A stretch of DNA of 32,238 nucleotides from contig SXJR01000046.1 of assembly GCA_005779305.1 (NCBI GenBank), forward strand, positions 1 through 32,238. The letters are read 5' to 3'. How positions within the stretch are numbered: position 1 is the first letter of the stretch; every line of letters begins with the position of its first letter. The notes below the pieces were generated by a model, which had not been told where the DNA came from, did no database searches, and worked only from the letters and a program-made list of their open reading frames with translations. Positions 15,353 to 24,824 of this stretch are shown piece after piece. A program made the position numbers and the translations under genes. Origin of the DNA: Myxococcales bacterium. Lineage in GTDB: Bacteria > Myxococcota_A > Polyangia > Haliangiales > Haliangiaceae.

Positions 15353-16105
15353 TCAGGGCGCGACCTCGCCACCGCACCAGCTCTCGACGACCGGCGCCGG
15401 GTACGTGACGGGGTTGGCGACATCGATGCGTGCCCGCGACACCACGCCGTGCGGCCCGGCGCCGGTGATCGCCTGGGGCCGCGTGTCGATGACGCGCACC
15501 ACCTCGACGAACGACGGGCAGCTCGCACAGCGGAGCAGGCCGCGCACCTCGTTGCCGACGGCCTCGATCCGGATCGTGTCGCCCGGCCCTGGCGCCGGCA
15601 GGTCGGGATTCGACGCCAGGATGGCGGTCTGGCTCGATGGCACCCCGTCGTACTTGATCTGCCACACGTCGGGATCGGCCTCGAGGTTGTGGTGGAACCC
15701 GTAGCGGGCGTTGTCGCTCGCGCGCCGCCGGGCCGAGGCCTGGATCATCATGTCCGGATCGCGGTCGGCGCTCACCACGGCCTCGCTGAACTGATCGGCG
15801 CCGATCGCCGTGCCCTGCCACTCGATGAAGGCGCCGCCGCCCGTCCCGGTGACACCGAAGTCGCTGCCGCCGACAATGCCGGTGCCGGGTCCAGCTCGCC
15901 AGCTCGCACCCAAGGTGGCCCGTTCGAAATCGTCGCAGACGACGTTGATGTCCCGCAGGCCGCCGTCGGCGATCGCGTCACCCGAGTCCGAGGTGGCCGC
16001 ATCGATCATCGGCGCATCGACCGGGTCGGCGCCGGGCGATTCGCTGCCGCACGAGGCGAGCACTGCGAGGATTCCGCAACAGTCCACGAGCAAGCCAGGG
16101 CGCAT
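15353..16105 (-). CDS. Lipoprotein, lectin/LamG-like fold candidate, end of module B
   Basis: A 250-residue lipoprotein (signal to lipobox VLASC, Cys19) with an Asp/Ala linker. The folded part begins at DDFERATLGASW and contains GGSDFGV, IEWQGTAIGADQFSEA, RRRASDNARYGFHHN, KYDGVPSSQT and PGPGDTIRIEAVGNEVRGLL. This order is typical of concanavalin-like jelly-roll domains that bind or present carbohydrate. It is a clear paralogue of the lipoprotein at 22950-23678, which keeps DDFERA, ADQFCEA, RARYGF, KYDGVPGPQT and GDTIRIE in the same order. It lies 20 bp after the FecR-like gene, so it probably ends that operon. No catalytic residue is evident. Confidence 0.78.
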   Translation of the reverse strand: MRPGLLVDCCGILAVLASCGSESPGADPVDAPMIDAATSDSGDAIADGGLRDINVVCDDFERATLGASWRAGPGTGIVGGSDFGVTGTGGGAFIEWQGTAIGADQFSEAVVSADRDPDMMIQASARRRASDNARYGFHHNLEADPDVWQIKYDGVPSSQTAILASNPDLPAPGPGDTIRIEAVGNEVRGLLRCASCPSFVEVVRVIDTRPQAITGAGPHGVVSRARIDVANPVTYPAPVVESWCGGEVAP

Positions 16106-16125
16106 GTCCCTGGGTGCCCGGCGGG

Positions 16126-17307
16126 CTACTCAGCCTTCGCCGCGGCGCGGATCGCCGCGACGCGGGCCAGACCCGCGCGAGCGCTCTTGCGGACCGCAGG
16201 CACCGCATCATCGACGGCGGCCTCGAACCGTCGTTCGGCATCGTCGACATGGCCGGCATCGATCTGCAGCCAGCCCAGGCGGGCGGCGGCCTCGCCGGCG
16301 CGCGACGATCGCGGGAAGGATGACAGGAAGCCCCCGAGCGCGGCGATCGCATCCGTGGACCGGCCGGCACGGGCCAGGGCGACACCCTCCCAGTACCGCG
16401 CATCCTCGGCGACCGCGCCTCGCTTCGCGGCCCGGTGGGATGCCGCAAACGACGCGGCGGCGCGGTCCGCGTCGCCGCGTCGCATCGCGTCCCATCCGTC
16501 GCGGAACTCGGCTTCTCCAGGCGCGCTGGCCGGAGCTGGCGGCGCTGGCGGAGCGACGGGCGCCTCTTTCGCCGCGTCGACTCTTCCGTCCGCGCCCGAC
16601 CTCCGCGTCACCGGCGGTCGTGCCAGAGGCTGCGCTGGCGCTTGCGGTTCCAGCTGTGGCTGCGGCTGCGGCTGCGCTTGCGGTTGCGGTTGCGGTTGCG
16701 GCAGCGGCAGCGGTTGCGGGTCGTCCACACGCGCCGTCTTCGCCGGCTCCCCATCCGGCCACCGCTGCCCCGCTTCCAGCATCACCACCGTGCCCGACCG
16801 AAGACGCAGCTCGACGACGCCGCGCTCGACCGCGACGGCCACGAGCCGCCCCTGATCCGCCGCGACCACGAAGCGCGTCCCGCGCACCTCGACCTCGGCG
16901 TCGCTGGTGATCACCCGGAACCGCTGCCCCACACCGAGACGCGCAACCTCGATCGTCAACGAGCCTTGACGGAGCTGGACGATCTCGTCGGGCGGAGCCC
17001 CGATCCGGGCAAGAACCGCGTCGGCCGCGGGCTCGAGCGTCGCGCTCGACAGACCGGCGGAAGCCTCATGGCCGCGGCCGACGAAGAACCACATCGCCAC
17101 GGCGGCCGCGAGCGCGACCGCAACCGCGGCAACGCCAAGCGTCCGTGGCCCGAACGTGCGCGTCGGCAGCGGCGTCACGCCACCGGCGGACGCGAGCAGC
17201 TCGCTCCGCATCCGTTCGACCCGGACGGCATCGGGCCGCAGCGCGGGAATCGAGCGCGCCAGCTCGTCGATCGCGTCGTCAGCCGGGTGGTGGCCGCGCG
17301 CGCTCAT
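16126..17307 (-). CDS. FecR-domain membrane protein with Pro-Gln linker and TPR-like C-terminus
   Basis: A 393-residue protein. Residues 1-55 are cytoplasmic, 56-77 a membrane helix (TLGVAAVAVALAAAVAMWFF), 108-185 a FecR domain (LRQGSLTIEV, TSDAEVEVRGTRFVV, ERGVVELRLRSGTVVMLEAGQ), 195-225 almost pure Pro-Gln/Pro-Leu, and about 265-390 TPR-like helices (AAASFAASHRAA, AIAALGGFLSSFPRS). FecR proteins relay outer-membrane signals to ECF sigma factors. The ATG overlaps the sigma gene's TGA by 4 bp. The fusion of FecR and TPR on one chain with a rigid linker suggests that a periplasmic assembly state is being sensed; that is inference. Confidence 0.85.
   Translation of the reverse strand: MSARGHHPADDAIDELARSIPALRPDAVRVERMRSELLASAGGVTPLPTRTFGPRTLGVAAVAVALAAAVAMWFFVGRGHEASAGLSSATLEPAADAVLARIGAPPDEIVQLRQGSLTIEVARLGVGQRFRVITSDAEVEVRGTRFVVAADQGRLVAVAVERGVVELRLRSGTVVMLEAGQRWPDGEPAKTARVDDPQPLPLPQPQPQPQAQPQPQPQLEPQAPAQPLARPPVTRRSGADGRVDAAKEAPVAPPAPPAPASAPGEAEFRDGWDAMRRGDADRAAASFAASHRAAKRGAVAEDARYWEGVALARAGRSTDAIAALGGFLSSFPRSSRAGEAAARLGWLQIDAGHVDDAERRFEAAVDDAVPAVRKSARAGLARVAAIRAAAKAE
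16637..16722 (-). repeat. Hexanucleotide repeat encoding a Pro-Gln linker
   Basis: Repeated GGTTGC/GGCTGC/GGCAGC hexamers on the plus strand (Pro-Gln and Pro-Leu dipeptides on the coding strand). Copies can be gained or lost without changing the frame, so the linker of the FecR-like protein can vary in length. Confidence 0.8.
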
Positions 17308-18931: not shown

Positions 18932-19138
18932 ATGCGTGATCTGATCGTCGTCCTTGCGCTGCTCTGCGCGTCGGCGTGCGCCCGGGTCAAACCCCATCAA
19001 CGGCAGGACCTGGCCCGGCGCTCGATGGATCCGGCCGGCGATGCCGGCGAGCGCAAGCTCGACGGCCACGTCGAGGAGTACCGTGAAGGATCGATGGGCG
19101 GCACCGGCGCCGGAGGTGGTGGATGCGGCTGCAACTGA
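18932..19138 (+). CDS. DUF4266 lipoprotein
   Basis: A 68-residue lipoprotein: signal with lipobox CASAC (Cys16), then ARVKPHQRQDLARRSM, a variable middle, HVEEYREGSMGG and a glycine run ending GCGCN. These are the defining features of DUF4266, a short outer-membrane lipoprotein that nearly always sits beside a DUF3570 gene. The start is taken as ATG 18932 because it gives the compact signal; ATG 18902 is in frame and would add 10 residues. Its 3' end overlaps the DUF3570 gene by 16 bp. Function is unknown; in other genomes the pair tends to lie near thioredoxin-like and ApbE flavin-transferase genes (from memory), which are absent here. Confidence 0.88.
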   Translation: MRDLIVVLALLCASACARVKPHQRQDLARRSMDPAGDAGERKLDGHVEEYREGSMGGTGAGGGGCGCN

Positions 19139-20190
19139 TCGCCGCGCTGGTCGTGCTCCTCCCCGCGACCGGCGCCACCGCGCAGGTCGATGATCGCGAA
19201 TCAGGTGAGGGCAAGCTCGACTCCGAAGTCGCGTTGTACGCGGACGACGACGCGACCACGGTGATCACCACGCTGGTGGCTGCCGACCTGCGCCTGCCCG
19301 CGCCGGTGGTGGTCGATGCGCACGCCCTGATCGATGCGGTCTCGAGCGCATCGGTCGACGTGGTCTCGGCGGCCACGCCCCGCTGGACCGAGAACCGCAT
19401 CGAGCTCGGCGCCAAGGCCCAGGCCCGCCTCGCCCGTCTCGACCTCGTGCTCGGCTACGTCTCGTCGGGAGAGAACGACTGGCGGTCGCACGGCATCGCG
19501 CTCGGCGTGGGCAAGGACCTCGCCGACGACAACACCACCATCCGCGCCGGGTACGGCTACACCACCAATCGCATCGGCCGCGCGCGGGATCCGGTGTTCG
19601 AGAAGACTCTCGATGTCCATGGCGCCGAGCTCAGCCTCGCCCAGGTGATCGGACCGTCGACGCTCGCGTCCCTCGCCTACACAGTCCAGCGCTCCGACGG
19701 GTATCACGCCAGTCCGTACCGCTACGTCATGACCACCGGCGGCGGCGCGGGACCGGAGGTCCATCCGAGCGGCCGCACCCGTCACGCGATCACCGGGAGG
19801 CTACTCCGCGCGCTCGGACCGACGACGACGGTCGACGCGAGCTACCGCGCCTACGTCGACGGCTGGGGGGTGTCGTCGCACACCGCCCAGCTGGCGCTCA
19901 CTCGCGAGCTCGGCGACGCCCTCGATCTTCGCGTGCGAGCCCGCGGCTACTACCAGGACGCCGCCGACTTCTACCAGGAGAGCTACGCGGCCCCGATGCG
20001 CTACATGTCTGCCGACCGCGAGCTCTCGACCTTCTGGGACGCCGGCGGCGGCCTCAAGCTCGCGTGGTACGGCGAGGCCATCGAGATCGGGGTCAAGATC
20101 GATGGTTCGTACTATCGCTTCCTCGACTTCGGTCGCCTCGGCGGACGGGTCGCGGTCGTCACCGGCGGAGGCATCACATGGCGCTGGTGA
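19123..20190 (+). CDS. DUF3570 outer-membrane protein
   Basis: A 355-residue protein with a signal peptide (ending ATAQ). DUF3570 signatures are present: EGKLDSEVALYADDD, DAVSSASVDVVSAAT with an ENRIE strand, DIRxGxGYTTNRIGR-like and SxNxRYxExxxTxxLG-like segments in diverged form, and SDGYHASPYRYV. Alternating strands continue to the C-terminus, which ends GGGITWRW with a terminal aromatic residue, as needed for outer-membrane insertion. The family is predicted to form a barrel. It starts inside the DUF4266 gene and its end overlaps the next lipoprotein gene by 13 bp, so the set is a tight operon. Confidence 0.88.
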   Translation: MRLQLIAALVVLLPATGATAQVDDRESGEGKLDSEVALYADDDATTVITTLVAADLRLPAPVVVDAHALIDAVSSASVDVVSAATPRWTENRIELGAKAQARLARLDLVLGYVSSGENDWRSHGIALGVGKDLADDNTTIRAGYGYTTNRIGRARDPVFEKTLDVHGAELSLAQVIGPSTLASLAYTVQRSDGYHASPYRYVMTTGGGAGPEVHPSGRTRHAITGRLLRALGPTTTVDASYRAYVDGWGVSSHTAQLALTRELGDALDLRVRARGYYQDAADFYQESYAAPMRYMSADRELSTFWDAGGGLKLAWYGEAIEIGVKIDGSYYRFLDFGRLGGRVAVVTGGGITWRW

Positions 20191-20684
20191 ATCGCATCGT
20201 CGTTGCCGTGCTGGGCGTGGCCGCGGCGTCGTGCACCGACGATGGCCTCACCGATCCGAGCTCGTTGCCCGAGCTCGATCGCGACCACTTCCGCTGCGCC
20301 GTCCAGCCCGTGCTCGCGGCCCGCTGCGCGTTCGCCGGCTGCCACGCCAGTGCTCGCCGCCCGCTGCGCCTCTACGCCGTCGGTCGTATGCGCCTGGGTG
20401 TTCCCTGGGACCGCCTCGCCGAGCCCCTCGGCGAGGCGGAGCTCGAGGCCAACTTCCAGGCCGCGCGCGGCTTCGCGTCCGCGGACGGCGACGAGTCACC
20501 GCTCCTGCTCTCCAAGCCGCTCGATCCGCTGGCCGGCGGTGGCTACCACCGCGGCCAGGATCTGTACGGAGACCGCGACGTGTTCGAATCGACCGACGAC
20601 CGTGGCTATCGCCTGGTCGCGGAGTGGCTGGCGGGGGCGTCGGCGCCCGCGGACTGTGTCCCCACGACGGAGGTGATGCCGTGA
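20178..20684 (+). CDS. Lipoprotein with a CX4CH (haem-binding-like) motif, copy 1
   Basis: A 168-residue lipoprotein (lipobox AAASC, Cys19). The core reads FRCAVQPVLAARC-AFAG-CH: Cys50, Cys55 and His56 form CX4CH, a spacing known for some variant c-type haem sites, in the sequence context of cytochrome-like domains (CxVxPxLxxxCxxxGCH). It goes on with PLRLYAVGRMRLG and later SxLLSKPLDPLAGGGYHRG. Its paralogue is the second half of the next gene (Cys350, Cys355, His356). Whether haem is attached at CX4CH is unproven; the cysteines could form a disulfide. The ATG lies inside the DUF3570 gene end, and the stop overlaps the next start by 4 bp. Confidence 0.8.
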   Translation: MALVNRIVVAVLGVAAASCTDDGLTDPSSLPELDRDHFRCAVQPVLAARCAFAGCHASARRPLRLYAVGRMRLGVPWDRLAEPLGEAELEANFQAARGFASADGDESPLLLSKPLDPLAGGGYHRGQDLYGDRDVFESTDDRGYRLVAEWLAGASAPADCVPTTEVMP

Positions 20685-22123
20685 AACTCGCCAGCCTCGC
20701 GATGCTCGCCGTGCTCGTCGTTGCGCCCGTATCGGCGGCGGCCTTCCATCCGGCGCTCTCGTTCGAGAAGACCGCCAACGAAGGCGGCGGCGGCGGCCTG
20801 TCCTTCACCGGCTCGCCACGCCACAAGGGCTACGACTGCGCCATCTGCCACGTCGATCCGGCGCTCCGCATCACCGCCGAGGTCACGTCCGACCCCGCCG
20901 GGTTGTCGGCCGGAAGTTACACACCCGGTGCGAGCTACGCCCTGGTCGTCCGCATGGTCGGCGAGCACCGCGGCTTCGGCACGCGGGCCAACCAGAACAG
21001 CATCGTCCTCGAGGTCACCGACGACCTCGGACGCTCGGCCGGGACGTTCGTCGGCTTCGACTCGGACGAGATGACGCCGATCGATGACGGTCGCGTGCTC
21101 GGTGGACGCGCCGGTCCCGATACCGAGTGGCGGTTCGGATGGCGCGCGCCGATCGCCGGCACCGGCGCGGTGACCCTCTATCTCGGCGTGGTCGATGGTG
21201 ACGGTGCTGGCAACGCGGCCGAGGCCCAGACCGATCCGAACGGCGACGACGTCGCGATGGTGAGTCTGCGCGCGTGCGAGGGTGCGGCCGGATGCGCGGA
21301 TCGTCCGCGCCGTGCGCCGGACGAATCGATCGCGGCTGGGTGCGCGGCGGGAGGAAGTGGCGTGGGCGTCCCGTGTGTCGTCCTGATCCTGTGCGCGGTG
21401 GTGACGGCGAGACGCCGCCGCGCGCTGATGCCGCCCGTGCTCGCGCTGGCCGCCGCGAGCGGATGCTTCGACCCCACGGTCCCGGGCGAGTGCGCGGGCC
21501 GGGTCTGCGGCGCCGACACCGGCGACGGCGGTGTCCCGGGATGCCCCGAGAGCTGGGAGTGCACGTCGTGGGAGGCACCGCTCGGCTCCGATCAGGCGAC
21601 GCGGACGTGCATCGACGCCAACCAGGTCGGCACGACCGAGTGCAAACCGTCGGAGGGACCGGTGACGCTGCCGGCCCTCGATCTCGAGTTCTACCAGTGC
21701 AACGTGCACCCGATCATCCAGCGGGGCTGCGCCATGCAGGGCTGCCACGGCACCGAGACCGGTCGCCCGTATCGGGTCTACGCCCGGGGCCGCCTTCGCA
21801 ACAACGAGATCGTCAACCGCACCGGCACCTGCATCCCGGCCACTGGCCAGGTCAACCTGGCCGAGGCGGGCACCGGCACGGTGATGTGCGAGGGCTGGCT
21901 GCCGCACACGCCGCGCGAGTGGAAGAAGAACTTCGACAGCGCGCGGTCGTTCATGCTCGACGTCGCTGCGCCGGCCGACTCCGACATGCTGCTCATGCCA
22001 GTCGTCGGTGGCAAGCCGCACATCGAGGTCAAGCTGTTCCGCAACACCGACGCCGACTACCGCACCATCCGCGACTGGCTGGGCGGCGGGTCGCTCCAGA
22101 CCTGCACCACGGGAGTGAACTGA
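20681..22123 (+). CDS. Fused protein: CX2CH secreted domain with MYXO-CTERM-like tail, then CX4CH lipoprotein
   Basis: One uninterrupted 480-codon frame. Residues 1-21: signal peptide. Residues 22-210: a beta-rich choice-of-anchor/Reeler-like domain with C53-x2-C56-H57 (YDCAICHVDP). Residues 217-247: a MYXO-CTERM-like tail (Cys221, hydrophobic 226-243, RRRR 244-247). Without a stop this continues as ALMPPVLALAAASGC (Cys262), a lipoprotein signal and lipobox, then a Cys-rich domain with CX4CH (Cys350, Cys355, His356), paralogous to the previous gene. GTG 21401 and ATG 21428 are in-frame internal starts, so the second half may be made separately. The GTG at 20681 overlaps the previous stop by 4 bp, and the TGA overlaps the next ATG (TGATG). 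Confidence 0.8.
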   Translation: MKLASLAMLAVLVVAPVSAAAFHPALSFEKTANEGGGGGLSFTGSPRHKGYDCAICHVDPALRITAEVTSDPAGLSAGSYTPGASYALVVRMVGEHRGFGTRANQNSIVLEVTDDLGRSAGTFVGFDSDEMTPIDDGRVLGGRAGPDTEWRFGWRAPIAGTGAVTLYLGVVDGDGAGNAAEAQTDPNGDDVAMVSLRACEGAAGCADRPRRAPDESIAAGCAAGGSGVGVPCVVLILCAVVTARRRRALMPPVLALAAASGCFDPTVPGECAGRVCGADTGDGGVPGCPESWECTSWEAPLGSDQATRTCIDANQVGTTECKPSEGPVTLPALDLEFYQCNVHPIIQRGCAMQGCHGTETGRPYRVYARGRLRNNEIVNRTGTCIPATGQVNLAEAGTGTVMCEGWLPHTPREWKKNFDSARSFMLDVAAPADSDMLLMPVVGGKPHIEVKLFRNTDADYRTIRDWLGGGSLQTCTTGVN

Positions 22124-22917
22124 TGCGCACCGCGATCACCGTCCTCGTCCTCCTCGTGACCGCCGCGCCGGCGGCCGCGTGGGATGGGCCCGAGCTCTGG
22201 TACGACCGCGCCGACGCGGCCAGCCCCGGCGGCGGCGGCATCTTCGGCACCGGTGGGCTCCGCGACCACCGCGTCACCTGCAGCCACTGCCACGTCGACC
22301 GGGTCGAGAACGGCGTCACCCTCGATCTCCGCTTCCAGCCCGCGCTGGGCAGCGCCGGCGGCGAGGCGACCTTTCAGGCCGGTCAGCGCTATCGCATCGA
22401 CGTGTCGCTCGTCGGCGAGACCCTCGGGTCGATCTGCGATCCGTACATGATGAACATGAACGGCTTCGCGGTCGCGTTCGAGAACGACGGCGGAGCGATC
22501 GTGGGGACGCTCGAATCGGACTCCGGTCAGATCCAGAGCAACTGCCCGACCAACTTCACCGATCCACCTTCGGGAACGACCGCGCTCTACCGCGATTGCC
22601 AGACGGTGTTCTCGATCGCGCCCGAGGACGTCGCGGCCTGGACGTTCTACTGGACCGCGCCGGCCACGGGCGGCACCGTCCGCATGTACTACGGCGGGGT
22701 CGACGGCGACTGTACGATGAGCTCGATGGGGGACGGGGTGGTCGCGGGGCGCCGCACCCTGATCGGCGCCTCCGCCCAGTCGGCGTCGCCGGCACCTGGC
22801 CGCGGCCCGGGCTCGGGAGCGATCGGCCTGGTCGGCCTGGCCGTGCTGGCGGGGCTCGGCGCCCCGCGCATGATGCGCCTGCGTCGTCGGGAGCACGACC
22901 TGCGAGCTCCACCATGA
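22123..22917 (+). CDS. Secreted CX2CH protein with C-terminal membrane anchor, copy 2
   Basis: A 264-residue paralogue of the first half of the preceding protein. The signal peptide ends at about residue 19 (TAAPAAAW). C53-x2-C56-H57 (VTCSHCHVDR) is at exactly the same residue numbers as in the paralogue. The body has the same beta-rich pattern (TFQAGQRYRIDVSLVGE, AAWTFYWTAPATGGTVRMYYGGVDGD), and the C-terminus has a hydrophobic helix followed by MMRLRRRE. The tail resembles MYXO-CTERM but lacks its cysteine. A single c-type haem at CX2CH is likely if the protein is exported to a compartment with cytochrome c maturation; this is inference. Confidence 0.82.
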   Translation: MRTAITVLVLLVTAAPAAAWDGPELWYDRADAASPGGGGIFGTGGLRDHRVTCSHCHVDRVENGVTLDLRFQPALGSAGGEATFQAGQRYRIDVSLVGETLGSICDPYMMNMNGFAVAFENDGGAIVGTLESDSGQIQSNCPTNFTDPPSGTTALYRDCQTVFSIAPEDVAAWTFYWTAPATGGTVRMYYGGVDGDCTMSSMGDGVVAGRRTLIGASAQSASPAPGRGPGSGAIGLVGLAVLAGLGAPRMMRLRRREHDLRAPP

Positions 22918-22949
22918 CGAGCGAGGGGCAGGGAAGGGAGCGGGGGCTC

Positions 22950-23678
22950 ATGGCCATGCGAAGCGCTGTGCTGCTGCTGGTCGGATGCGCGGCATGTGGT
23001 GGAACCGGGTCCGACCCCGTGGATGCATCGACGGGAGGTCGAGACGGCTCTTCGGTCGACGGCGCGCCGGTCGACGCGAGCGACGTCGCGACCGACGACT
23101 TCGAACGTGCCGGGCTTGGAACCGACTGGGTGGTTGTCTTCCCGCCGACCCCGCCGAACACGCAGGTCCAGATCGTCGGTTCGAGCGATCTCGGGATGGG
23201 CCCCGGCCCTGAGGGATTCTTCCTGGTCAACTGGACTCGGCGCGCGTTCTCGGCCGACCAGTTCTGTGAGGCAGCGATCCCGGCCGATGTCACACCGGGC
23301 TGGGCGCACATGGTCTACGTGCGTTGGCGTGCGAGCGATCGTGCGCGTTATGGATTCGCGTACGACAACGATCCAGGGCAGCCGAACTTCGGCGACTGGA
23401 TCTTCAAGTACGACGGCGTGCCCGGGCCGCAGACGCGGATCATCGCCAGGGTGGCCGCGACCGCCACACCGCGACCCGGCGACACGATCCGCATCGAAGT
23501 CGTTGGCTACCGACTGCGCGGCTACCTGAACGGGACGCTGGTTCTCGAGGCGACGGACACAGATGCCAGCAAGATCGCCGACGGTGTTCCCGGGCTCGCC
23601 GCGCGGTGGGCGACCGGCAACCAATCGACGACCACCGCGGTCCGGGTCTGGGAGTCGTGGTCAGGCGGCAGCTTGTAG
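22950..23678 (+). CDS. Lipoprotein, lectin/LamG-like fold candidate, paralogue of 15353-16105
   Basis: A 242-residue lipoprotein (MAMRSAVLLLVGC; the second ATG at 22956 is also possible, and ATG 22914, which overlaps the previous stop, is in frame). A purine-rich GGGAAGGGAG precedes the chosen start. After the Asp/Ser linker come DDFERAGLGTDW, SSDLGMG, VNWTRRAFSADQFCEA, VRWRASDRARYGFAYD, KYDGVPGPQTRI, GDTIRIEVVGYRLRGYLNG and a final VRVWESWSGG, the last matching VVESWCGG of the paralogue. The likely fold is a concanavalin-like jelly roll. Its presence at the end of both divergent arms links the two arms. Confidence 0.8.
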   Translation: MAMRSAVLLLVGCAACGGTGSDPVDASTGGRDGSSVDGAPVDASDVATDDFERAGLGTDWVVVFPPTPPNTQVQIVGSSDLGMGPGPEGFFLVNWTRRAFSADQFCEAAIPADVTPGWAHMVYVRWRASDRARYGFAYDNDPGQPNFGDWIFKYDGVPGPQTRIIARVAATATPRPGDTIRIEVVGYRLRGYLNGTLVLEATDTDASKIADGVPGLAARWATGNQSTTTAVRVWESWSGGSL

Positions 23679-23771
23679 TCGCCAGCAACGCGGGAGCGCC
23701 TGGGCTGGGTCCCTGCGGCAATGTCGATGGAACGTTGACACCGCGCGCCGGGCGCGCGATGCAGATGCCCG

Positions 23772-24824
23772 ATGCCGGAACGCCATTCGCTGCTCGCGCT
23801 CGCCGCGCTCGTCGCCGTCGTCGTGGCCGGGTGCGGTGACAACGCGGAACCGCCTCCTCGCGAGGTCACGCTCGATGCCATGGTCGGCGCCAACGGCCTC
23901 TCGAACGAGATCGTCTTCACGGTTCCCGAGGACACGCGGTCGGTGACCATCGTCGTCGAGGGAGCGGCCACGGCCCTGTATGCGCTGGGCGCGCTTACGC
24001 TCTTCGATGGGATCGACCGCGTGGGTCTCGGTGCCGAGCCGATCGGCGCCGCGATGCGCGCCAGCTACGACGACGAGGAGATCGGGCAGATGCCCGGCGG
24101 GCTCCTGCAGTCGATCCGGCTCGGCACGTACACCCACGTCTACCCGTACCGCCCAGGTCAGGAGGTTCCGGCGGGACAGGCGCGCCTGCGGGTCGCGTCC
24201 GACGCTGCCGGTCCCGTCCGCGTCACGGTGCTGATGCCCGAGGAGGACGCGGCCAACGTCCTTTCGCTCCACTTGATCGTGATCTCCGACACCCTGACCG
24301 ATCCGAACACGGCGCCGTTCGTCACCGAGCTGGAGCGCATCTTCGGCCAGGCCGGCATCGTGGTCCGTGTGGCGAGCGTCGAGCGCATCACCGGGTCGGC
24401 GCTGGAGCGGATCACGCAGTCGACCGAGCCGCAGGAGTCGCCGGCCAGCCAGTCGGCCATGCTGCCCGGCCTGATCGGCGACGACGCACGCGACGGGCTC
24501 GACGTGTTCATCGTCGAGTCGCTGCCGTCGGGGATCGGCGGCCTCTCGCTCGGTACCCCGGGTCCTCCCATCCGCCGCAGCTACTACTTCGGCGTCCTGA
24601 TCAGAGGCGGTCCAGGCGCCGTGCCGCTGGCGCGCGTGGTGGCACACGAGGTCGCACACTTCCTGGCCCTCCAGCACGTGCAGAACATCGGCATCTCGGG
24701 CGCGATCTATCCCGACCCGCTCGACGACACCCAGCCCGGCCAGGGCAACCTGATGGAGACCGGCACGATCCTCACGGCGGACCAGGCCTTCGCCCTGACG
24801 CGGAGCGCGCTCCTGCGTCCGTGA
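23772..24824 (+). CDS. Metzincin-like zinc metalloprotease lipoprotein
   Basis: A 350-residue lipoprotein (lipobox VVAGC, Cys21). Near the C-terminus, VVAHEVAHFLALQH gives the zinc site H292-E293-x2-H296-x5-H302, and NLMETG with Met328 supplies the Met-turn, as in metzincins. The glycine usual between the second and third ligand (HExxHxxGxxH) is Ala299 here. The N-terminal 190 residues look beta-rich (EIVFTVPEDTRSVTIVVEG) and may be a propeptide or binding domain. Other ATG codons just upstream (23759, 23765) are out of frame. It is 93 bp after the lectin-like lipoprotein and convergent with the MFS gene. Its target could be the neighbouring surface proteins; that is a guess. Confidence 0.82.
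   Translation: MPERHSLLALAALVAVVVAGCGDNAEPPPREVTLDAMVGANGLSNEIVFTVPEDTRSVTIVVEGAATALYALGALTLFDGIDRVGLGAEPIGAAMRASYDDEEIGQMPGGLLQSIRLGTYTHVYPYRPGQEVPAGQARLRVASDAAGPVRVTVLMPEEDAANVLSLHLIVISDTLTDPNTAPFVTELERIFGQAGIVVRVASVERITGSALERITQSTEPQESPASQSAMLPGLIGDDARDGLDVFIVESLPSGIGGLSLGTPGPPIRRSYYFGVLIRGGPGAVPLARVVAHEVAHFLALQHVQNIGISGAIYPDPLDDTQPGQGNLMETGTILTADQAFALTRSALLRP

Follow-up and report, generated by a model that had tools for sequence, protein, structure and literature searches.

An operon of DUF4266, DUF3570 and paired CX4CH and CX2CH proteins in a myxobacterium: a candidate cell-surface electron-transfer module with a sorting-tag-like stretch that runs into a lipoprotein signal

What might be the function of a myxobacterial operon in which genes for a DUF4266 lipoprotein and a DUF3570 outer-membrane-type protein are followed by two pairs of secreted proteins, the members of which carry a C-x4-C-H and a C-x-x-C-H motif, respectively? 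The cluster begins at position 18932 of a 32,238-nucleotide stretch of DNA, referred to here as the window (contig SXJR01000046.1 of Myxococcales bacterium assembly GCA_005779305.1). We favour the reading, to which we give a probability of roughly 55%, that it encodes a cell-surface electron-transfer module combining proteins of a flavin system with c-type CX4CH and CXXCH proteins, at least one of which would be anchored at the surface, because the motif residues are invariant, the CX4CH proteins are linked to one clade of DUF3570, and redox proteins neighbour the operon in relatives. All genes of the cluster lie on one strand and most overlap, with a gap before the last (P0008). The features on which the argument depends, with expectation values (E) where a profile was matched, are as follows.

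18932 to 19138, forward strand: small DUF4266 lipoprotein with a C-terminal CXC (GGGGCGCN); PF14086, E 4.8e-17, with lipobox and CXC read in the translation
19123 to 20190, forward strand: DUF3570 outer-membrane-type protein; PF12094, E 9.1e-37
19333 to 19377, forward strand: two relaxed flavinylation-like motifs within DUF3570, DAVSSAS and DVVSAAT, from motif positions and alignment
20178 to 20684, forward strand: CX4CH lipoprotein 1, motif at 20325 to 20345, from the family alignment; below all Pfam and NCBIfam cut-offs
20681 to 21427, forward strand: CX2CH choice-of-anchor V (Reeler-like) part of a fused frame, motif at 20837 to 20851; NF041895, E 5.7e-12, and Foldseek
21341 to 21421, forward strand: internal MYXO-CTERM-like tag, with Cys at 21341 to 21343, a hydrophobic stretch and an Arg cluster at 21410 to 21421, from the codon listing
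21428 to 22123, forward strand: CX4CH lipoprotein 2 part of the fused frame, lipobox Cys at 21464 to 21466, motif at 21728 to 21748
22123 to 22917, forward strand: CX2CH choice-of-anchor V protein 2, motif at 22279 to 22293; NF041895, E 8.6e-13

An original prediction, made from the sequence alone, had described this order of overlapping genes, and Pfam (for DUF4266 and DUF3570) and the motifs (for the two CX4CH/CX2CH pairs) bear it out, except that CX2CH protein 1 and CX4CH lipoprotein 2, given there as separate genes, occupy one frame without a stop from 20681 to 22123. In gene order the motifs read C50-x4-C55-H56, C53-x2-C56-H57, C-x4-C-H and C53-x2-C56-H57, and the shared C53-C56-H57 position in the two CX2CH proteins is as had been stated. 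Such a motif arises in 0.17 to 0.61% of 20,000 shuffled copies per protein, the value for P0003 being 0.23%.

The prediction had made its reading depend on a gene order conserved elsewhere and on homologues that retain the Cys/His motifs. Linkage of CX4CH genes to DUF3570 across family genomes and phylum loci supports the first point, and the motif is kept by 15 of 15 aligned CX4CH and 7 of 7 aligned CX2CH homologues. DUF3570 is present in 29 of 30 family genomes, and 25 of the 28 strong CX4CH matches scored in these genomes (87 bits or more) lie within 5 kb of it; 15 of the 28 built the profile, and outside that set the proportion is 10 of 13. In 12 of the 30 genomes, the scoring took in 127 first-look candidates out of as many as 194. 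A DUF3570 tree was made from 137 of 146 frames, nine with fewer than 250 aligned residues having been dropped; in it, CX4CH occurs within 8 kb of 43 of the 58 tips of one clade (support 0.705) and of none of the 79 tips outside, and an inner clade (support 0.917) gives 38 of 53 inside and 5 of 84 outside. Loci L134 to L137 duplicate others and are excluded from these counts, and contig ends cut some neighbourhoods. DUF4266 lies within 8 kb of DUF3570 at 89 of 95 family frames and 48 of 51 phylum frames, and a separate lipoprotein group, with CX5CH in 20 of its 23 members, accompanies 27 of the 79 tips outside the clade. The CX4CH-DUF3570 unit is real and conserved. At one locus (L135:315-1175), the DUF3570 gene is split by an in-frame stop and may be broken or misread.

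The CX4CH lipoproteins, which fall short of every Pfam and NCBIfam cut-off, apparently represent an undescribed family of putative mini-cytochromes. Across 15 aligned sequences, the window copies included, the two Cys, the motif His, an Arg, a Glu, a Gly-Gly and a distant His are invariant. This last residue, 68 positions past the motif His, is a candidate second haem ligand, and one of the 15 members touches the PccH Cytochrome c model at E 0.23. The CX4CH profile behind the neighbourhood counts was built from 23 sequences, comprising the P0005 domain and 22 picked for the motif in DUF3570 loci. Among its matches in phylum loci, which did not contribute to the CX4CH profile, 39 of 40 have CX4CH, as do 33 of 33 that are full-length, and a Gly-Gly-x-x-His-like pattern is found in 20 of those 33; all 35 full-length matches in the family genomes have both. 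Because a match to the profile favours the motif, its retention among the matches is not an independent test. Two proteins of about 1000 residues with repeated CX4CH domains (L015:8869-11772 and L107:6460-9441) adjoin a single CX4CH lipoprotein and DUF3570, and the former has a hydrazine-synthase-alpha-like domain (PF18582, 1.8e-6).

The second member of each pair belongs to a recognized family. Both CX2CH proteins exceed the curated cut-off of NF041895 (45.9 and 48.6 bits against 42) and match NF041894, the MXYO-CTERM-anchored MXAN_6652 family, weakly (27.7 and 17.8 of the 200 bits needed; E 1.8e-6 for copy 1). The structure model of copy 1 has a mean predicted local distance difference test score (pLDDT) of 59 and is confident in the core alone. 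In the PDB, the F-spondin Reeler domain accounts for all eight of its best Foldseek matches, with probability 1.00, E from 2e-7 to 2.3e-6 and template modelling scores of 0.57-0.63 by target and 0.34-0.37 by query length; general beta-sandwich proteins come next and score less well. CX2CH protein 1 is therefore predicted to adopt a Reeler-like fold. The sequence link is weak: Spondin-1 comes first with a sequence profile of these proteins (E 0.13), and Pfam Reeler (PF02014) is touched by one of the seven aligned sequences, not one from the window, at E 0.0037, the window proteins staying below its cut-off. The C, C and H of the motif are invariant in all seven. In the open-access literature, to which all our statements on publications refer, no paper on choice-of-anchor V was found.

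Linkage of the choice-of-anchor V family to DUF3570 is narrower than that of CX4CH. In the 30 family genomes, 14 of 19 places, called at E up to 0.001 and mostly below the family's cut-off, lie within 5 kb of DUF3570. In the tree, 16 of the 58 tips of one clade have such a neighbour, against none of the 79 tips beyond it. The phylum sample has 24 places, of which 21 are on contigs without a listed DUF3570. A general link was rejected on these counts, and the association is limited to the one clade because choice-of-anchor V is widespread in the phylum away from DUF3570. In a separate observation, the choice-of-anchor V frame at L049:6133-8883 and L097:250-2835 stays open across the whole antisense of a convergent DUF3570 gene and continues, in the same frame, into a DUF2271-like gene.

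Redox proteins recur beside the operon in relatives. A Rieske protein adjoins it at the five loci of clade D, most of which also have an AhpC/TSA-type thioredoxin, and a five-locus group (L100:240-818, L049, L053, L055 and L097) carries proteins of the DUF2271 type, published as ApbE substrates, beside DUF3570. Two of these five DUF2271-like lipoproteins have DAITSAT, two have a canonical [ST]GA[ST], and one has neither by the pattern used. Multihaem cytochromes are found at other loci, with a match to C554 and an MtrC-like one that narrowly misses the cut-off. Pfam runs on one representative each confirmed Rieske, DUF2271, AhpC-TSA and Cytochrome_C554 among the neighbours, and the window genome contains cytochrome c assembly proteins (PF01578) in three places. 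Alternatively, the module might handle metal at the surface without haem, its Cys/His motifs serving as disulfides or as ligands of copper, zinc or iron. The failure of CX4CH proteins to reach any cytochrome family cut-off and the lack of an invariant second ligand in the CX2CH proteins would fit such a role, as would the VIT1 iron transporter included in 25 published DUF3570-type clusters (PMC8238504). However, both C-x-x-C-H and C-x4-C-H suit c-type haem, and the neighbours in relatives include cytochromes, Rieske and flavin-type proteins, and we thus consider metal handling without haem unlikely.

How does this module relate to flavin chemistry? DUF3570 is a substrate of ApbE in Chlorobium luteolum, and published DUF3570 proteins have two [ST]GA[ST] sites and are accompanied by DUF4266 and thioredoxin, to which some clusters add DsbD (PMC8238504); the flavinylation consensus is D-x-x-[ST]-G-A-[ST] (PMC12052999). 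The DUF3570 and DUF4266 genes of the window stand together and both exceed their Pfam cut-offs, and the lone TGAT of the window DUF3570 falls in its signal peptide. The absence of a thioredoxin and a flavin transferase, remarked on in the original prediction, holds for the window by profile, but a missing partner is not special to this operon, since ApbE is absent from the 8 kb to either side of all 95 DUF3570 frames sampled in the family. The family has 38 ApbE match places, one of them on the same contig as DUF3570, approximately 18 kb away. Outside the family, ApbE lies near 16, thioredoxin near 15 and CX4CH near 22 of 51 phylum DUF3570 frames; 10 of those 22 also have ApbE, and eight have both ApbE and thioredoxin. 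Two loci, L163 and L179, combine CX4CH, choice-of-anchor V, DUF4266, DUF3570, thioredoxin and ApbE.

The notion that flavin was lost along with the conserved Gly was rejected, given that [ST]GA[ST] is missing altogether from 6 of the 16 DUF3570s of the phylum sample that are linked to ApbE, and that a Gly-to-Ala change keeps approximately 50% of flavinylation in one tested protein (PMC12052999). The requirement for a canonical site may thus be relaxed in this phylum. Because the window genome has two ApbE matches, one beginning with an apparent signal peptide, and one DsbD match on other contigs, flavin modification and reduction from elsewhere are possible, and the window DUF3570 may be flavinylated by such an ApbE. 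On the best reading, the cluster extends the known DUF4266/DUF3570 flavin system by putative mini-cytochromes.

A more sceptical interpretation would regard these as ordinary secreted myxobacterial proteins with an incidental CXXCH, and DUF3570 as a plain porin. Such an interpretation would accommodate the many choice-of-anchor V places on contigs without a listed DUF3570 and the lack of a standard flavin motif in the mature DUF3570 of the window, yet CX4CH is strongly linked to one clade of DUF3570 and the motif residues do not vary, both of which argue against it, and we judge it quite improbable.

The most unusual feature of the module is the fused frame, in which 480 uninterrupted codons join CX2CH protein 1 to CX4CH lipoprotein 2. 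It opens with a signal peptide, followed by CXXCH and a beta-rich domain; next come a Cys, a hydrophobic stretch and the Arg cluster, and finally another hydrophobic stretch, which ends in the lipobox Cys, and the CX4CH domain. Copy 1 has the Cys, hydrophobic helix and Arg cluster of a sorting tag in an internal rather than C-terminal position, and the tail of CX2CH protein 2 is hydrophobic and Arg-rich, without the MYXO-CTERM Cys. Sequencing error was rejected as the source of the fusion because a sister species carries the same fused frame (locus L046, whose second CX2CH protein is 78% identical to that of the window) and analogous junctions occur in eight other loci. A tag-like stretch is in frame with a lipobox at 10 loci in three partner combinations: choice-of-anchor V to CX4CH in the window and L046; choice-of-anchor V to DUF4266 in L050, L051, L052, L054 and L056; and a Cys- and Asp-rich protein to DUF4266 in L163, L170 and L179. 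The scan behind this count covered loci retrieved from around DUF3570, plus a small number of others, and gave 19 pattern matches; nine were kept, and 10 that read as low-complexity sequence out of frame were dropped. A tenth junction, that of L050, was taken from the list of shared frames. In the DUF3570 tree, the window groups with L046, and each of the remaining two junction types has a group of its own (support 1.0 each), all within a 16-tip clade (support 0.942) that includes unfused members, and the relation of the two DUF4266-partnered types is weakly supported (0.164). Because of this grouping, the junction likely arose twice, and possibly three times.

MYXO-CTERM proteins are believed to receive a lipid on the tag Cys, to be cut by myxosortase and to reach the surface via type II secretion (PMC11980579). 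We tentatively propose, with confidence a little short of even, that the fused frames encode myxobacterial surface redox polyproteins. In these, one Arg cluster would both close the sorting tag and open a second lipoprotein signal, and cleavage by myxosortase and signal peptidase II would free two surface lipoproteins in equal amounts. In this proposal, which covers the three combinations of partners at DUF3570 operons, the CX4CH proteins would be a new family of mini-cytochromes working with or in place of the flavin outer-membrane protein. Alternatively, the two halves might be translated separately, with lipoprotein 2 starting from an internal codon and the lost stop giving only a minor fused product. 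In-frame GTG codons and the ATG at 21428 do occur just ahead of the lipobox in the window, and an ATG, GTG or TTG lies between the Arg cluster and the lipobox Cys at 8 of 10 junctions. However, L054 and L056 have no such codon, and a separate lipoprotein start would therefore have to fall within the helix before it; neither Lys nor Arg comes after the Arg cluster at 9 of 10 junctions (L170 has one Arg), so that the usual basic signal start would be missing; and the arrangement recurs with different partners. Separate translation thus appears rather unlikely. A polyprotein, if that is what the frame encodes, would be a possible route to paired surface lipoproteins. No publication on an internal lipobox was found.

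In the electron-transfer reading, DUF4266, a lipoprotein with a CXC, and DUF3570, which carries flavin in the known system, would convey electrons to the outer membrane or away from it; by analogy with that system, both are likely electron carriers. The CX4CH lipoproteins would act as small c-type cytochromes with one haem each, probably held by the motif His and the distant His, and would exchange electrons with the CXXCH Reeler-like proteins, predicted to bind one haem per protein. At least one Reeler-like protein would be anchored at the surface by the myxobacterial sorting pathway, a role for the MYXO-CTERM-like tag that is suggested by known families, and one Reeler-like protein and one CX4CH lipoprotein would be made as a single precursor cut by the sorting protease and signal peptidase II. 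The electron partner might, at a guess, be an extracellular metal or another insoluble acceptor. The electron- or metal-handling surface complex that the original prediction had envisaged gains in plausibility from the conserved unit, the retained motifs and the redox neighbours in relatives, and its surface location would fit the tag of copy 1. No publication on Kofleriaceae cytochromes with the outer membrane was found.

Several observations weigh against this reading. The sites in the mature window DUF3570 read SSAS and SAAT, the canonical Gly being absent from both, and neither ApbE nor thioredoxin gives a profile match anywhere in the window. Three of the 28 strong CX4CH matches lie away from DUF3570, and 15 of the 58 tips of the DUF3570 clade have no CX4CH neighbour. 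The CX4CH profile finds no solved relative by sequence, and the CX4CH structure model is poor (pLDDT 52) and unfit for a fold search. No second His or Met is invariant across the seven aligned CX2CH proteins, and haem on either family is read from motifs rather than from biochemistry. TIGR03901 (MYXO-CTERM) is not listed for the tagged protein in an NCBIfam scan at E up to 1, the presence of this model in the library being unchecked. Finally, no inner-membrane electron donor family is matched among the eight cluster proteins in Pfam or NCBIfam.

Two further lipoprotein genes complete the cluster.

22914 to 23678, forward strand: lipoprotein P0007, likely a later insertion; no counterpart in L046
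23772 to 24824, forward strand: lipoprotein P0008, with the zincin-like motif HEVAHFLALQH; weak match to Peptidase_M43 (PF05572, E 0.0087), below cut-off

P0007 was rejected as a core member because the sister-species locus has no match to it, and is likely a later insertion. It is 38% identical to a frame on the minus strand at 15356-16129 of the window, approximately 7 kb upstream. A relative of P0008, 58% identical, adjoins the operon in L046.

The description of the cluster as an undescribed system is sustained in part: DUF4266 and DUF3570 belong to a published flavin-type system and the CX2CH proteins to an NCBI family; no family cut-off is reached by the CX4CH proteins. Beyond PMC8238504, its supplementary tables aside, nothing on a module of DUF3570 and DUF4266 was found. 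Like the ApbE/DUF3570/thioredoxin/DUF4266 clusters of that paper, the window cluster has a DUF4266 with CXC beside DUF3570, and some of its phylum relatives also carry ApbE and thioredoxin. In contrast to them, it lacks both genes, has DsbD only on another contig and relaxed flavin motifs, and adds CX4CH and CX2CH proteins. The CX4CH lipoproteins, falling below Pfam and NCBIfam cut-offs here, offer a testable partner within one phylum. Their spacing is shared with cytochrome c3, which has CXXXXCH twice (PMC10454114), but here each lipoprotein has one motif and no similarity to a solved chain was found.

Animal proteins of the ferric-reductase type (SDR2/CG8399) contain Reeler domains, whose role there is not known (PMC10691727). 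Compared with F-spondin and SDR2/CG8399, the protein described here is bacterial, has CXXCH ahead of the fold and bears a MYXO-CTERM-like tag; unlike the ferric-reductase type, no DOMON or b561 part is seen. It thus provides a bacterial setting for the Reeler domain and, as a CXXCH Reeler-like protein with a surface tag, another testable partner. Both CX2CH proteins resemble NF041895 in exceeding its cut-off, and differ from it in that one copy is fused to a lipoprotein and that they stand beside DUF3570. The closest parallel to the junction is MXAN_5598, which likewise has a sorting tag in mid-frame and which its authors think a possible gene fusion (PMC11980579). In MXAN_5598 a barrel and OmpA domains lie downstream; here the Arg cluster leads directly into a lipoprotein signal, and the partner is CX4CH or DUF4266.

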